A stretch of 64,000 nt of DNA. It comes from Paraburkholderia acidisoli. GTDB taxonomy: Bacteria > Pseudomonadota > Gammaproteobacteria > Burkholderiales > Burkholderiaceae. Position 1 is the first letter of the stretch, and every line of letters starts with the position of its first letter. The notes beneath the pieces were generated by a model that was given only the letters and a program-made list of their open reading frames with translations, made no database searches and was not told where the DNA came from. A program made the translations under genes and the position numbers. Location: NCBI RefSeq assembly GCF_009789675.1, contig NZ_CP046913.1:2852001-2916000 (forward strand). Reading direction: 5' to 3'. Shown here piece after piece: positions 9,666 to 50,611 of the stretch.

Positions 9666-9913
9666 CGGATCCTTTCCGTACGGCAGCTGCAGACGTACCC
9701 AAGGACGAAACCGGCTGGCAAGGCCGACCGTGAGGCTGTTCCGGCGCACATGACCCGCGACGACGATGCGCGATGACGCGCGATGGTGCGGGTCCGAAGC
9801 GCCAGGCATGCCGCCCGGCGGGAAACTGGCGTTCTTCGTGCGACTTCGCGCGCATTCGCGCAGCGACAAGTCAACGAGAAGCGGAACGAGAACACCAGCC
9901 AGAACTTCTGGAA

Positions 9914-10006
9914 ACTTCCCGCGCCGGTATTACCCGGATCGGGTGCGAAGGGTCTCTCTCAGCCTCACTGGCGGCATGCCCGGCATACCGGTGAAGCACC
10001 CCTGTT
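9914..10006 (-). ncRNA. TPP riboswitch (THI element) of the thi operon
   Basis: The minus strand carries the conserved TPP-aptamer pieces in order: AGGGGTGC at the 5' stem, GGCTGAGA, then ACCCTTCGCACCC, CCGATCCGGGTAATACCGG and the closing GGGAAG. Binding of thiamine pyrophosphate should switch off thiO-thiS-thiG-thiE. The aptamer lies about 350 nt before thiO, farther than a simple ribosome-binding-site occluder needs, and no U-rich intrinsic terminator was seen in between. A short palindrome (CCAGAA-g-TTCTGG) follows it directly at 9899-9911. Confidence 0.93.
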
Positions 10007-10015
10007 TCGTCATCG

Positions 10016-24480: not shown

Positions 24481-24668
24481 GCTCGATTTTCCTGGTTCCG
24501 TTGGTGAATACCCGCATGCCCGCCAGGCCGCGCCAGCACTGGTTCTCGCAGGCATGCGGCTTAGGCGGAAAGCTCGCGGCGCTTAGTGAAAAAGCTCTAA
24601 CGGTCGCGTATGGTTTGTTGCAAACGTTCTGTTCATAATGAGCGGGCCTTTCATGGAGGAGTCTTAAT

Positions 24669-25388
24669 ATGAAATTAAAACAGGCGCTGGCAGGAATCGC
24701 CGCGCTCGCCAGTTTTTCGGCAGCACACGCACAATCGGCCAACACGTTCTACGTCACGACGGGCTGGTTCCGTCTCATGCCGCAAGACAGCAGTGACCCG
24801 CTCAAGATCAATAGCGCAGGCGGCGCGCCCGTCAATCAGTCCATTGCCAACACGGGCGCCAGCGTAGGCTCGTCCGACACGCTCGGCTTGTCGATCGGTT
24901 ATTTCATCACCGACAGCTTCGCGGCCGAAGCCGAACTGGGCATCCCGCCGAAGTTCGATCTCTCGGGTGGCGGCATCTTCAGCCCCTACGGCAAAGTGGG
25001 TTCCGCACGCCTCTGGAGCCCGGCGCTGATCTTCAAGTACTACTTCAACAAGCCCGACGCGAAATTCCGCCCCTACCTCGGCGTGGGCGTGACCTACGCA
25101 TGGTTCACCGATGCGAAGATCACCAACAGCGCATTCGAGCAGGGCGTCCTTGGGGGTCCGACCAGCGCTTCCACGGATCGTTCCTGGGCACCGGTATTCA
25201 ATGCCGGCTTCAACTACATGTTCACGAAGCACTGGTTCGCCGGCTTCTCGCTCTCGTACATCCCGATCAGCGTGATCGCATCGTTCGATACGAAGGTCAA
25301 CAACCAGCTCGGCACCGAGCGCCGCAGCGAAGCCAAGATTCACCTGAACCCGCTCGTCACGTACCTGAAAGTCGGTTATATGTTCTAA
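24669..25388 (+). CDS. ompW: OmpW-family outer-membrane protein
   Basis: A 239-residue beta-barrel protein. A signal peptide (MKLKQALAGIAALA, cleavage after AHA near residue 21) precedes the OmpW body: DTLGLSIGYFITDSFAAEAE, PALIFKYYFN, RPYLGVGVTYAWF, and the C-terminal phenylalanine (KVGYMF) needed for Bam-mediated insertion. OmpW forms a small eight-stranded channel for hydrophobic compounds. A good ribosome-binding site (GGAGGAG) lies 8 nt before the ATG. The gene is divergent from the RAYT-like gene, with 188 bp between them. Confidence 0.93.
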   Translation: MKLKQALAGIAALASFSAAHAQSANTFYVTTGWFRLMPQDSSDPLKINSAGGAPVNQSIANTGASVGSSDTLGLSIGYFITDSFAAEAELGIPPKFDLSGGGIFSPYGKVGSARLWSPALIFKYYFNKPDAKFRPYLGVGVTYAWFTDAKITNSAFEQGVLGGPTSASTDRSWAPVFNAGFNYMFTKHWFAGFSLSYIPISVIASFDTKVNNQLGTERRSEAKIHLNPLVTYLKVGYMF

Positions 25389-45460: not shown

Positions 45461-45510
45461 GTTGTTGTTCGACCAGCCGCCGCGCGGTGTTGCTGTCGCG
45501 CCGCCCGCGT

Positions 45511-46185
45511 TCAGTGCAAGCCGGCGGCGTAGTCGGCGACGGCCTTGATCTCGTCGTCGGAAAGCCGGTGCGCGATCATGCGCATCGGGTCGTTGTTGTT
45601 GCGCGTGCCCTGCTGGAAAGCGTTGAGCTGCGCGACGATGTACTCCGACCACTGCCCCGAAAGGCGCGGATACTGGATCGGAATGCCTTGCCCCGTGGGT
45701 CCGTGGCACGCGGCACACGCCGGCACGCCCTTGTCGGCCACGCCCGCGCGCCAGATCGTCTGGCCAAGCGCCACGGTTTTCGCGTCGTGCGCGTAGCCGG
45801 GCTTGGGTTGCTGCGAGGCGAACCACGCCGCCACATTGATCATATCCTGATCGGACAGCGCGGCCGCGAAGCCCGCCATGACCGGATTGGCGCGCGCGGC
45901 GGGCTTGCCGCCGGGCTGGGGCTTGAAGTCCTTGAGTTCTTTAACGAGATACGCGGCGTGCTGGCCGGCGAGCTTGGGATACGCGCCGCCCGTGCTGTTG
46001 CCGTCGGCCGCGTGGCACGCGGCGCACACCTGCGCGGCAATCGCTTGCCCGCGCGCGAGGTCGGGTTTGGCCGGCGTTCCCTGATCCGCCGCTCTCGCGC
46101 CTCCCGCCATCGTGACTACACCTGCTGTCAGACCTGCCGCTATCGCAATCTCGAGTACCTTCAAGGACTTGCCCAGTCGATTCAT
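45511..46185 (-). CDS. Diheme cytochrome c4
   Basis: A 224-residue exported protein with two c-type heme sites, both CAACH (VCAACHAADGNS and ACAACHGPTGQG), each half repeating the c4 pattern (YPKLAGQHAAYL; YPRLSGQWSEYI). A signal peptide ends near GGARA. It carries electrons in the periplasm, probably to a terminal oxidase, and is a natural client of the ResB/CcsA machinery downstream. The start at 46183-46185 leaves a normal signal peptide. Confidence 0.94.
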   Translation of the reverse strand: MNRLGKSLKVLEIAIAAGLTAGVVTMAGGARAADQGTPAKPDLARGQAIAAQVCAACHAADGNSTGGAYPKLAGQHAAYLVKELKDFKPQPGGKPAARANPVMAGFAAALSDQDMINVAAWFASQQPKPGYAHDAKTVALGQTIWRAGVADKGVPACAACHGPTGQGIPIQYPRLSGQWSEYIVAQLNAFQQGTRNNNDPMRMIAHRLSDDEIKAVADYAAGLH

Positions 46186-46293
46186 TCGCGCACCTTGTTT
46201 CGTCTTGTGGGAATCAGGTTCTGCAATGGACGACAACGACGGCACTGCCCGAAAGGCCCGCGCTGGCCTAACCGGTATTCAGTAAACCGTCGC

Positions 46294-46303
46294 ATTGTAC
46301 AAT
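46294..46303. promoter_or_regulatory. Palindromic divergent -10 element between cytochrome c4 and engB
   Basis: ATTGTACAAT is its own reverse complement and gives a TACAAT hexamer on each strand, suitable for both engB (plus) and the cytochrome gene (minus). The -35 boxes are weak. Confidence 0.4.
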
Positions 46304-46421
46304 AGCGCGCACGGCGCTACGGCGCCAGTCGGGCCTCTCCCCGATATCCCAGAATCCACCCCGGCCGCTTCCGGGCCCGGCGAGCCAGTCGCCTCGCTGT
46401 TTCATACTGTGGTCGTATCCG

Positions 46422-47081
46422 ATGGCCTTCCTGCTGCACCAAGCCCGCTTCTTCACGACGGTCAACCATTTGCGCGATCTGCCCGCCACGGCGCGGCCCG
46501 AGGTCGCGTTCGCCGGCCGCTCGAACGCGGGTAAATCGACGGCCATCAACCTGCTGTGCAACCAGAAGCGTCTCGCGTTCGCCTCGAAAACGCCGGGCCG
46601 CACGCAGCACATCAACTACTTCTCGGTCGGTCCCGAAGACGAGCCGGCCGGTTACCTCGTCGACCTGCCGGGCTACGGTTACGCCGAAGTGCCGGAAGCC
46701 GCCAAGGCGCACTGGGAGCAACTGCTCTCGCTGTATCTGCAGTCGCGCGCGCAGCTCGCCGGGCTGATCCTGATGATGGATGCGCGCCGTCCGTTCACCG
46801 AACTCGACCGCCGCATGGTGGAGTGGTTCGGATCGACGGGCAAGCCGATCCACGCGCTGCTCACGAAATGCGACAAATTGACGCGTCAGGAGTGCGTGCT
46901 GTCGCTGCGCACGGCCAACAAGGCGTTCGACGAATACCGCAAGGCCGGTTACGAAGGGAAGCTGAGCGCGCAGCTCTTCTCGGCGCTCAAGCGGGTTGGG
47001 CTGGACGAGGCGCATGCGGTGATCGAAAGCTGGATCGCGCCGAAGGCCACGGCTGGCGAAGCCGGGCAAGCCGCCGAATAA
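46422..47081 (+). CDS. engB: Ribosome biogenesis GTPase EngB (YsxC)
   Basis: A 219-residue TRAFAC GTPase needed for large-subunit assembly. The P-loop GRSNAGKST spans residues 32-40; switch [12 protein letters not shown] and the NKxD-type TKCD follow; [11 protein letters not shown] holds the G2 threonine. Size and motifs are normal. It is divergent from the cytochrome c4 gene and followed, after 415 bp holding an opposite-strand small RNA candidate, by hemB. Confidence 0.96.
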
Positions 47082-47313
47082 GCGCCTGCCAGGGCGGGGA
47101 TCGCCATGATCGCCGCCACCGCCGCCATCCCTCATAGCGCTGGATTCGCCGCGCCTCGCGCTTTCGATTGCGCTCGATTCCGGCGCACGGCGCGAAGCCA
47201 ATCCGTAAGTTTTACGCTTATGTGCGCCAGCGCACATAACGCCCCTCGCTTCCGCCCGGATGGCTCGTAAAACGCATGCCCGGCGCATAGACCGAGGGCT
47301 TTGTCGCGCCCAG

Positions 47314-47421
47314 AAAAAAACCCGCCGCGATTTGCCGGCGGGTTAAACAGCCTTATCGAAAAACGACAGGCACCCGCTCAGGGAGGAGAAGCGGGGAGTC
47401 TGGCGCCAGGCGCCTCGCTCG
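47314..47421 (-). ncRNA. Candidate small RNA gene opposite the engB-hemB gap
   Basis: The minus strand between engB and hemB ends in a strong intrinsic terminator (9-bp stem AACCCGCCG/CGGCGGGTT, then seven T; 47314-47344) with no protein gene to serve. Upstream on that strand is a TATCAT at 47428-47433, which would start a transcript of about 105 nt. That RNA would have a 5' hairpin (GGCGCC-rich), a single-stranded C/U-rich run (CUUCUCCUCCCU) complementary to Shine-Dalgarno sequences, a second small hairpin (GCCUGUCG/CGAUAAGGC), then the terminator. This is the layout of a trans-acting sRNA. The -35 box is weak. Confidence 0.5.
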
Positions 47422-47424
47422 ATC

Positions 47425-48496
<1,072 letters not shown>

Positions 48497-48520
48497 GTTT
48501 CTGCGCGTTTAGCGCAAGCG

Positions 48521-48550
48521 AAAAAGGCACGTCGAGCGACGTGCCTTTTT
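48521..48550. terminator. Convergent terminator between hemB and dsbD
   Basis: A perfect 13-bp stem AAAAAGGCACGTC / GACGTGCCTTTTT with a 4-nt loop, T-runs on both strands, between two converging genes. Confidence 0.92.
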
Positions 48551-48598
48551 GTTTTTTGCCGATGCCGAACGCGCGAACGCTATCGCGCTGGACCGCGG

Positions 48599-50611
48599 TC
48601 AGGACTGCGGCGCCGCCGCCGACGCGGCGGATGTCACGTTGTCGAGCCGCGCGAGAAAGCGCTCGGCGTTCTCGTAGCCCACCACGCGCAGCACTTCGTG
48701 GCCCTTCGTATCGAAAAAGATGATGCCCGGCGGCCCGAACAGACCGAAACGCTTGAGCAGCGCCTGGTCGTTGGTATCGTTCGCGGTGACATCGGCGCGC
48801 AGCAGGCCTAGCTGCTTGAGACGCGCCTGCACGCGCGGGTCGCTGAAGGTGAACTTCTCCATTTCCTTGCAGCTCACGCACCAGTCGGCATAGAAGTCGA
48901 GCATCGCGGGCTGGCCGACCGTATGGGCCGAAGCGAGCGCCGCGTCCAGTTGCGCCGGCGAGCGCACGGGCGCGAAGCTCAGGTCGCTTGCGGTGTTCGC
49001 TTGCGCACCCGCGGTCGAGGCATCGGCCGCGCCCGGGCCGCTCACGCGCGCAGCCAGCACGCCCAGCGGGCGCAGCGGATCGCTCGACCCCGCCGCAAGG
49101 CCGACGATCAGCGTGGCGGCCCAGATCGCGAACGCCGCGCCAAGGCCGCGCCCGAGCCGGCGCCAGACGTTCGAAACGCCCGCGCCCGGCGTGAACAGGC
49201 CGAGCGCCGCGGCGGCCAGCAGCAGCCAGAGCGCCGCGAGCAGCATCTGCGCGGTCGCGCCGAGCACGGGCCAGACGATCCACAGCGCGGCGGCCAGCAG
49301 CACGACGCCGAAGAACACCTTCACGCCGTCCATCCACACGCCCGCGCGGGGCAGCAGCGTGCCCGCGCCGAGGCCGAGAATCATCAGCGGCACGCCCAGC
49401 CCGATCCCCATCGCGAACAACGCCGCGCCGCCGAGCACGGCATTGCCCGTGTGCGCGATGAAGGCGAGCACCGCGAACAGCGGCGCGGTCATGCAGGCGC
49501 CCACCACGAGCGCCGAAAGCGCACCCATGAGCGCGACGGCCAGGAACTTGCCGCCCGAACGGCCTTGCGAAGCCCGCGAGGCGCCGTCCTGCCAGCGCTG
49601 CGGCAACGCGAGGTCGTAGCCCGCGATCAGCGTGAGCGCGAAGGCGGTGAGCAGCACGGCGAACGCACCGAGCACCCAGGGATTCTGCAGCCACGCGCCC
49701 AGACTCTGGCCGACCAGCGCCGCGGCAATGCCGAGCACGGTGTAGACGAGCGCCATGCCGAGCACGTAGACGAACGAGAGCGAGAAGCCGCGCAGGCGCG
49801 TCACGCGCGCGCCCTCGCCGACGATGATCGCCGAAAGGATCGGGATCATCGGGTACGAACACGGCAGCAGACTCAGCACCATGCCCGCAACGAAGTACAG
49901 ACCGACCACGGCGAAGAAGCCGCCACCTTGCAGCAGCGACTGTGCGTAGTCGGCGCTGGTGGCGCGCTCGTACCACGGTTGATCGCTAGTGTTCGGCGCG
50001 GCTTGCGCCGCAGGCGCGGGCGCTTGCGTAGGGGCTTGCGATGCCGATGCCGGCGTCTGCGCGGATGTCTGCGTGGGCGCGCCTTGCGCCGCAGCTTTCG
50101 GCACCGCGCTCTGCCCGCCCGCAGCGGCCTGCAATGCCGCACCGCTCACGTGATAGACGTGCTGCGCGGGCGGATAGCAGATGCCCGCATCGGCACAACC
50201 CTGCGACGTGACGGCCAGATCGAACGGCCCGCTCGACTTCGCCACCGGCACGCGGATCGTCAGTTCCTTGCGATAGGTCTCGACGTTCTTGTTGAAGGTC
50301 GGATCGAACTTCACGTGGCCCGGCGGGATCTGCGCATCGCCGAGCGTGGCCGCGCCGTTTTGCGCCTCGAACGCGAAGCGCTCGCGGTACATGTAGTAGC
50401 CGTCCGCGATCTTGAAGTGCACGTCGACCATGCCCGGCTCTTCGCTCGCGCTGAACGTGAATGCCTGGTCGGGGGGCAGAAAGTCGGTGTCGTCGGCGCG
50501 CGCGGCGGGGGCGCCGAGCAGCATCGTCAACGTGCAGCACAGGAGCACGAGGAAACCGCAAAGCGAAGCATACGGCGCGGCACACGCGCGCCGATCGAAA
50601 CGATTAGACAT
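48599..50611 (-). CDS. dsbD: Thiol:disulfide interchange protein DsbD
   Basis: A 670-residue three-domain protein carrying electrons from cytoplasmic thioredoxin to the periplasm. After a signal peptide come the alpha domain with its cysteine pair (GCADAGICYPPAQH), a Pro/Ala linker, eight transmembrane helices with the two membrane cysteines (LLPCSYPMIP and VGACMTAPLF), and the C-terminal thioredoxin-like gamma domain (ADWCVSCKEME). It may reduce apocytochromes matured by ResB/CcsA. The ATG at 50609-50611 overlaps the cutA stop; an ATG eight codons earlier is possible. Confidence 0.95.
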   Translation of the reverse strand: MSNRFDRRACAAPYASLCGFLVLLCCTLTMLLGAPAARADDTDFLPPDQAFTFSASEEPGMVDVHFKIADGYYMYRERFAFEAQNGAATLGDAQIPPGHVKFDPTFNKNVETYRKELTIRVPVAKSSGPFDLAVTSQGCADAGICYPPAQHVYHVSGAALQAAAGGQSAVPKAAAQGAPTQTSAQTPASASQAPTQAPAPAAQAAPNTSDQPWYERATSADYAQSLLQGGGFFAVVGLYFVAGMVLSLLPCSYPMIPILSAIIVGEGARVTRLRGFSLSFVYVLGMALVYTVLGIAAALVGQSLGAWLQNPWVLGAFAVLLTAFALTLIAGYDLALPQRWQDGASRASQGRSGGKFLAVALMGALSALVVGACMTAPLFAVLAFIAHTGNAVLGGAALFAMGIGLGVPLMILGLGAGTLLPRAGVWMDGVKVFFGVVLLAAALWIVWPVLGATAQMLLAALWLLLAAAALGLFTPGAGVSNVWRRLGRGLGAAFAIWAATLIVGLAAGSSDPLRPLGVLAARVSGPGAADASTAGAQANTASDLSFAPVRSPAQLDAALASAHTVGQPAMLDFYADWCVSCKEMEKFTFSDPRVQARLKQLGLLRADVTANDTNDQALLKRFGLFGPPGIIFFDTKGHEVLRVVGYENAERFLARLDNVTSAASAAAPQS

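Follow-up and report, generated by a model that had tools for sequence, protein, structure and literature searches.

Does the gap between engB and hemB of Paraburkholderia acidisoli encode a small regulatory RNA, and how would such an RNA relate to Spot 42, which is encoded beside engB in E. coli? A reading of the sequence alone had proposed a minus-strand sRNA gene next to engB, unrelated in sequence to Spot 42 but similar in location. We followed up this proposal in a 64,000-nucleotide stretch of the genome (the window), using covariance searches, folding and comparison with other genomes. The RNA proved to be a known one; its comparative pattern across Beta- and Gammaproteobacteria is the new part.

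The engB-hemB gap encodes the anti-hemB sRNA

Scanning the window with Rfam models (cmscan) gave a match to RF02837, anti-hemB, at 47312-47397 (-), with 80 bits against a gathering cut-off of 49.5 (E = 3.7e-17). All positions of the model (1-81 of 81) are aligned to the window copy, a full-length match, and RF02837 is the only Rfam family above its own cut-off within the gap. The models for ErsA (RF01719), sX13 (RF02232), Spot 42 (RF00021) and RF02278 all remained below their Rfam cut-offs on the window sRNA, and the Spot 42 model had no match in the organism's own genome (0/1). From the TATCAT that the sequence-only reading had pointed out, present at 47433-47428 (-), the 5´ end is expected at ~47421, for a length of ~106-110 nt (Table 1). 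The same scan of the window also returned a TPP riboswitch (RF00059) at 9899-10013 (-), with 68 bits.

Table 1. Features of the engB-hemB gap and its flanking genes (window coordinates)
Feature	Position	Strand	Basis
anti-hemB (RF02837) sRNA gene	47312..47421	-	cmscan match; 5´ end placed from the -10 box; 3´ end in T-run
5´ hairpin GGCGC-CUG-GCGCC	47402..47414	-	MFE structure
Hairpin 1, CCCGCU / AGCGGG, carrying the C/U-rich loop	47373..47395	-	in 160/161 loci
Predicted seed loop UCUCCUCCCUG, able to pair with purine-rich Shine-Dalgarno sequences	47379..47389	-	folding, loop conservation
Hairpin 2, GCCUGUCGUUUUUCGAUAAGGC	47350..47371	-	MFE structure
Intrinsic terminator and U tail	47312..47344	-	stem 47319-47344; column conservation
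-10 box TATCAT (within TATATCAT)	47428..47433	-	sequence; GGTATATCATACC kept in 27/28 same-genus loci
GGAAACTT, degenerate counterpart of the GGAACTT (sigma-E-like -35) of other lineages	47449..47456	-	window scores 9/12
engB (ribosome-binding GTPase), convergent neighbor	46422..47081	+	PF01926, 4.8e-18
hemB (delta-aminolevulinic acid dehydratase), divergent neighbor	47498..48496	+	PF00490, 4.1e-139

The RNA has a published counterpart. Khoo et al. (2012, PMC3521395) included anti-hemB among Rfam homologues in B. pseudomallei, and Sass et al. (2017, PMC5688073) equated it with the B. cenocepacia J2315 RNA ncS04, described as a 105 nt RNA between BCAL0264 and BCAL0265 in the orientation <- -> <- (Sass et al., 2015, PMC4603805). 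The 5´ end of ncS04 was mapped by dRNA-Seq, its 3´ end was confirmed by RACE, and a Northern panel is given (PMC5688073). It shares with the window copy the gap, the orientation, the ~105 nt length and the terminator, and next to it the window copy shows nothing notable; the family itself reaches far beyond Burkholderia. Given the full-length RF02837 match and ncS04, the candidate is a known sRNA: the stretch is this organism's copy of the already catalogued anti-hemB RNA and is not new. That it is a genuine RF02837 sRNA gene we regard as practically certain. The covariance search that the sequence-only reading had named as a check thus confirmed its sRNA gene, together with the fold and the conservation described below, and at the same time removed the novelty of the candidate. 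A search of open-access full text retrieved no functional study of anti-hemB or ncS04.

The C/U-rich run is mostly the conserved loop of a predicted hairpin

The predicted fold of 47314-47421 (-) has a minimum energy of -49.1 kcal/mol (z = -3.06; 2/200 shuffles were equally good) and places three hairpins ahead of the terminator, the 5´ hairpin and two short ones, where the sequence-only reading had counted two. The 5´ hairpin recurs at the equivalent place in many of 68 aligned relatives (judged by eye, uncounted). The orphan strong terminator described earlier on the minus strand is borne out by a 9-pair stem (47344-47319) and a run of seven T, two of which lie within the stem. The C/U run CUUCUCCUCCCU sits where it had been placed, at 47391-47380 (-), but it is not the free segment it was taken for: positions 47395-47390 pair with 47378-47373 in a six-pair stem, with one inner pair added in the minimum-energy fold, so that most of the run forms the loop of hairpin 1. 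A free linker is accordingly rejected. The part UCCUCCCU (47387-47380) is fully open, with an unpaired probability of 1.0, in line with the earlier view of a C/U-rich seed complementary to Shine-Dalgarno sequences.

Conservation of the loop and the terminator in related engB-hemB gaps had been named beforehand as a test of the RNA, and the outcome favors it. A 32-nt string spanning hairpin 1 is identical in all 28 same-genus loci, window included, and the columns G100, G101 and T104-T107 are kept in at least 90% of the 68 relatives. For a wider comparison we took 166 loci, dropped five without a recognizable core (L187, L191, L197, L201, L202) and oriented the other 161, comprising 118 from the order (28 same-genus) and 43 from outside it, the latter drawn from 48 of 69 matching genomes, mostly the best-scoring ones. 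One order locus, L153, was misplaced by the pattern and was kept in the counts of neighborhood and hairpin 1. Hairpin 1 was detected in every oriented locus except L119.

The 43 loci outside the order hold 37 distinct versions of hairpin 1. CTCCC is found in the loop of 42 of them, a count that leans toward such words since the extraction of hairpin 1 was anchored on them; one locus (L170) has CCCCC there. The pair types of the stem change, as in CCCGTTC/GAACGGG, CCCGTCC/GGACGGG and TCCCACTC/GAGTGGGA. In a chimera control, real stems had at least six pairs in 42/43 loci, and 74% of chimeras did so as well, so the covariation is visible and not overwhelming. The consensus structure from a plain MAFFT alignment was poor (10 pairs), in part owing to a one-base shift of hairpin 1, and hairpin 1 was counted separately from that alignment.

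RF02837-like RNAs extend far beyond Burkholderia

In a first set of 59 mostly same-genus genomes, the organism's own included, 54 had an RF02837 match above the cut-off. Across the order this held for 133/200 genomes, and at E ≤ 1e-6 for 142/200 genomes and 80/109 genera. Across the class, 14/274 genomes were above the cut-off (12/271 without the three order genomes), and 71/274 matched at E ≤ 1e-6 (69/271 without those three), representing 58/222 genera, two of which are shared with the order count. Among 14 control genomes, none matched at E ≤ 1e-6 and three did at E ≤ 1e-3, none of them above the cut-off. A DNA pattern of the non-Burkholderia hairpin variant matched at least 118 named contigs; those listed include Ectothiorhodospira, Thioalkalivibrio, Competibacteraceae, Steroidobacteraceae, Methylobacillus and Collimonas, by sequence match alone. 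Another contig with the pattern bears the label of a Chloroflexi MAG (L220), perhaps through a binning error. The window sRNA region had no match in a plasmid collection.

Multiple copies occur. In genome G403, four sRNA copies lie in tandem in the polA-engB region (L193, G403:C33:13150-13886, -). RF02837 matches three of them, one of which RF01719 matches as well, and RF02232 matches the remaining copy; a separate sigma-E-like element, GGAAC...GGTCTGA, precedes every copy. Second copies close by were noted in G067, G112, G382, G493, G339, G380, L330 and L331. Two loci (L173, L179) gave weak matches to the alphaproteobacterial ar14 model (RF02344, E 0.017) on their RF02837 stretches, a possible link to alphaproteobacterial C-rich sRNAs.

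The sRNA lies mostly beside engB, with hemB as a neighbor found only in the order

Neighbors were called with iterated HMMs for EngB, HemB and PolA. Within the order, the arrangement of the window, with engB convergent downstream and hemB divergent upstream, was found in 90/118 loci; in a further 11, engB precedes the sRNA on its own strand and no hemB was found; eight have hemB only, three engB only and six neither. Counted singly, engB lies downstream on the opposite strand in 93/118 and hemB upstream in 98/118. Outside the order, 17 of the 43 loci have polA upstream and engB convergent, nine polA only and seven engB only, one has an inverted sRNA in the same gap, and nine have no recognized neighbor. 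Thus polA is upstream in 26/43 and engB convergent in 24/43, mostly in the order polA > sRNA > < engB, and hemB was found beside none of the 43 (flanks of ~1.2-1.5 kb). In the inverted case (L182), engB lies upstream (+) and polA downstream (-).

This is the slot of several known sRNAs. As the sequence-only reading had noted, E. coli Spot 42 is encoded beside engB (yihA): the order in K-12 is polA (+), spf (+), yihA (-), and the neighbors in Aliivibrio are reported to be the same (PMC3295665). In P. aeruginosa, ersA is located in the polA-engB region (PMC8575079), and sX13 is located downstream of polA (PMC3771888). Compared with the Spot 42 slot, the engB side agrees with the window, and hemB occupies the place of polA in Burkholderiales.

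The name anti-hemB invites a reading in which the RNA acts in cis on hemB, as a regulatory RNA or antisense regulator, or in which a shared palindromic -10 fires both ways. It would fit the divergent neighborhood, with hemB upstream in most order loci as counted above, and the near-palindrome GGTATATCATACC / GGTATGATATACC that contains the -10 at 47425-47437 and is kept in 27/28 same-genus loci. Its 12-letter core is present in 1/133 other loci, though, and hairpin 1 persists where hemB was not found, both in the 11 order loci with engB upstream and in all 43 outside. The expected 5´ end of the RNA also falls short of hemB, ~76 nt upstream of its start; since the genes are divergent and do not overlap, cis-antisense control of hemB is rejected. 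We consider a cis role of any of these kinds improbable, and the name anti-hemB is misleading. Separately, we note that this near-palindromic -10 region, which separates the sRNA from hemB, may be bidirectional.

Sigma-E-like motifs precede the sRNA in most other lineages examined

A scan of 45500-49500 with the sigma-70 consensus found no promoter. In many loci, elements resembling GGAACTT-N16/17-TCTRA were seen upstream of hairpin 1, and we scored them as matches among the 12 letters of a sigma-E consensus. As this consensus was chosen after the sequences had been seen, the weight lies on the comparison with shuffles and on the almost constant position. A score of at least 10/12 was reached in 66/88 order loci outside the window's genus, against 49/1760 dinucleotide shuffles, and in 26/43 loci outside the order, against 20/860 shuffles; in other stretches of the same loci it was reached in 1/176 (order) and 2/86 (outside). 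These counts leave out L153 and an order locus whose upstream sequence was too short. Where present, the motif is separated from hairpin 1 by an almost constant distance. Among 10 further loci taken from the ErsA and sX13 models, two reach 10/12, two sX13 loci score 8 and the ErsA locus 9; ErsA is reported to depend on sigma-22 (PMC8395346). Sigma-E control of the RNA outside the window's genus is quite likely, although the literature we found on the RNA contains no sigma-E test of anti-hemB.

The window's genus differs, with at least 10/12 in 0/28 loci and 9/12 in 23/28 (shuffles 73/560), among close relatives that are not independent. The degenerate -35 GGAAACTT beside the TATATCAT -10 suggests that this genus has lost tight stress control. 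By qPCR, none of the seven tabulated conditions altered ncS04 levels significantly (PMC5688073), and in the same report brief stress, SDS included, largely did not induce sRNAs; this argues against stress control in Burkholderia yet fits a degenerate promoter.

Covariance models link anti-hemB with sX13 and ErsA

Given the shared slot, we compared the family models across the class. The ErsA model (RF01719) matched 10/274 genomes at E ≤ 1e-3, all beside polA (8) and/or engB (9) and on the expected strand, and 5/9 matches outside the Pseudomonas-like family, which was recognized through PrrF and ErsA model matches, overlap an RF02837 match. Were RF01719 scoring on the terminator alone, its matches should scatter over a genome's many terminators. 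The sX13 model (RF02232) matched 12/274 genomes, seven beside polA and/or engB and five without either neighbor recognized; two matches overlap RF02837, and one lies within the tandem array that RF02837 and RF01719 share. The Spot 42 model (RF00021) matched 0/274.

We also built a model, R1, from 68 RF02837-like RNAs. Its training set leaves out the Pseudomonas-like family and the two genomes above the sX13 cut-off and includes loci weakly matched by the ErsA or sX13 models (e.g. G315, G403). R1 matched 16 of 30 engB loci (29 from the Pseudomonas-like family and one other), once each and on the 3´ side of engB, with 14 of the 16 at E ≤ 0.01; the 107 kb searched gave no further match at E ≤ 5. 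For six of the 16 we compared the RF01719 matches, and all six overlap; a seventh ErsA locus that was checked, L093, had no R1 match. The alignments show that part of the R1 score on ErsA stems from the terminator. R1 further matched both sX13 loci (E 2.9e-4 and 5.2e-4) and one more ErsA locus (E 0.0048), and it had no match to E. coli spf at E ≤ 10.

Anti-hemB, sX13 and ErsA thus have in common the slot, the strand and cross-matching models; sX13 and ErsA are joined to anti-hemB by models of sequence and structure, Spot 42 by place only. The view that the window RNA is similar to Spot 42 in location and unrelated to it in sequence therefore stands for Spot 42 itself; ErsA and sX13, in contrast, do cross-match with anti-hemB. 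We assign anti-hemB and sX13 to one family with considerable confidence, and common membership of anti-hemB and ErsA is likely. Because RF02837 lies mostly in the polA-engB slot outside the order and cross-matches ErsA and sX13, the engB-adjacent location common to Spot 42, ErsA and anti-hemB is likely more than coincidence.

The likenesses and differences to each known sRNA can be set side by side. sX13 of Xanthomonadaceae shares the site after polA, the C-rich-loop hairpins and the R1 matches, and differs in having three C-rich loops, no clear sigma-E-like motif and a reported independence of Hfq (PMC3771888), the window copy scoring below the RF02232 cut-off. ErsA (Pseudomon-1, RF01719) shares the polA-engB gap and a C/U-rich loop, and is reported to be under sigma-22 control and to need Hfq at some targets; its C/U run lies in the terminator loop (by eye), it is reported to pair through a U-rich single-stranded part (PMC8575079), and the window copy is below the RF01719 cut-off. 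Spot 42 shares convergence with engB/yihA at the engB 3´ end, but has no covariance similarity and has polA rather than hemB upstream. The betaproteobacterial double-hairpin 'toxic' sRNAs (RF02278; ncS27) likewise have a C/U-rich loop that, by prediction, masks ribosome binding sites (PMC5688073), but are a separate family, without a match in the window at the cut-off.

Alternatively, C-rich hairpin sRNAs might have arisen several times in the polA/engB gap, so that anti-hemB, sX13 and ErsA would be analogues. C/U-rich anti-Shine-Dalgarno loops are easy to evolve and are reported in other Burkholderia sRNAs (PMC5688073); Spot 42 occupies the same slot without covariance similarity, and a clear sigma-E-like motif is missing from both sX13 loci. 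Cross-matches at single loci are weak as well: RF02837 as a single model gave E 1.7 in one of eight sources (seven with ErsA), and RF01719 on single class sources gave E 0.28 and 1.5 in two of eight. Independent origin fits poorly with three separately curated family models that match the same stretches, on the same strand and in the same slot, with one tandem array matched by all three, and with a promoter motif that, where found, keeps nearly the same distance from hairpin 1. We consider it unlikely, and favor common descent of the three.

Predicted mode of action and candidate targets

Our best overall reading, which we hold to be a likely one, is an anti-Shine-Dalgarno regulator that belongs to an old engB-linked sRNA family. 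Hairpin 1 would hold the C/U-rich loop open, the loop would block ribosome entry on other transcripts by pairing with their purine-rich ribosome binding sites (GGAGG, GGGAGG), and Hfq may hold the U-tail. Its complementarity to strong Shine-Dalgarno sequences should make the loop a competitor of ribosomes; a trans-acting block of ribosome binding sites is reasonably probable. The sequence-only reading had proposed a trans-acting RNA with such a seed, and we take that to be probably right. By analogy, sX13 appears to be the best model for the mode of action of anti-hemB: repression by sX13 is reported to require the C-rich loops of the sRNA and G-rich motifs in the mRNA (PMC3771888).

With regard to possible Hfq dependence, 'co-purification with Hfq' is reported for ncS04 (Sass et al., 2015, PMC4603805; also PMC5688073). 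sX13 is reported to be Hfq-independent (PMC3771888), while ErsA needs Hfq for algC and anr (PMC8395346, PMC8575079) and its control of amrZ is reported Hfq-independent, so the role of Hfq may differ between family members.

Target prediction with the C/U-rich segment, also suggested earlier, established no target. Apart from the sRNA gene, the 7.9 Mb genome contains the exact 10-nt loop complement AGGGAGGAGA once (G000:C1:970601-970610), the reversed control pattern is absent, and none of the plus-strand ORFs around that place starts at ribosome-binding-site distance when the first start after each stop is taken. Inside the window, the best candidate target is an OmpW-family outer membrane protein gene at 24669 (region 24655-25388 (+); PF03922), which has TGGAGGAG, matching the sRNA loop, before its start and ranks 2/464 by duplex energy in a redundant list of candidate starts. 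Among eight OmpW paralogues on plasmids of relatives, GGAGGAG is present in three and absent from five (three starts were guessed, and one annotated start is not ATG); with the paralogues less than 50% identical and the result mixed, they neither support nor refute OmpW as a target. Targets among envelope-protein mRNAs would fit a sigma-E ancestry.

That no extended mRNA complement was found in the genome could also point to a sponge or decoy, an RNA whose anti-Shine-Dalgarno loop sequesters Hfq or another sRNA and which has no mRNA targets of its own. The conservation of the loop appears to exceed what Hfq binding alone would need, and the sX13 loops act on matching G-rich mRNA motifs (PMC3771888); we judge a decoy very improbable beside direct pairing with mRNAs.

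Discussion

The RNA in the engB-hemB gap is in itself ordinary, a known Rfam sRNA. What the comparison adds is, probably, an engB-linked, sigma-E-born sRNA family whose members in Beta- and Gammaproteobacteria go by at least three names. The window RNA would be the Burkholderiales form of an old sRNA gene at the engB 3´ end, with sX13 in Xanthomonadaceae and ErsA in Pseudomonas as other forms, and a promoter of the sigma-E (envelope stress) type would drive it in most lineages examined. Earlier papers compared some of these RNAs: sX13 was compared with Spot 42 and alpha-r7 through the polA locus, with a stated lack of sequence similarity (Schmidtke et al., 2013, PMC3771888), and ErsA was termed a functional orthologue of Spot 42 (PMC8395346). 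Among the matches listed in a search of open-access full text, we found no publication placing anti-hemB beside sX13, ErsA or Spot 42.

More tentatively, and with less than even confidence, we raise the possibility that anti-hemB, sX13, ErsA and a more divergent Spot 42 (perhaps also alpha-r7) are forms of one gene on the polA/engB side that predates the split of Beta- and Gammaproteobacteria. Its ancestor might have been a sigma-E-driven, anti-Shine-Dalgarno RNA with several C-rich loops, which was duplicated in tandem in some lineages, came under carbon control in enterics and acquired a housekeeping-type promoter in Burkholderia.

The 2013 sX13 paper posed the question whether the polA loci of other bacteria also encode sRNAs that act alike (PMC3771888). 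Our comparison bears on the first half of that question, the presence of sRNAs at polA loci elsewhere, and makes alike action testable. If the family link is true, what is known of sX13 and ErsA, namely C-rich loops acting on G-rich ribosome binding sites and control by envelope stress, would become a prediction for more than 100 genera with RF02837-like RNAs.
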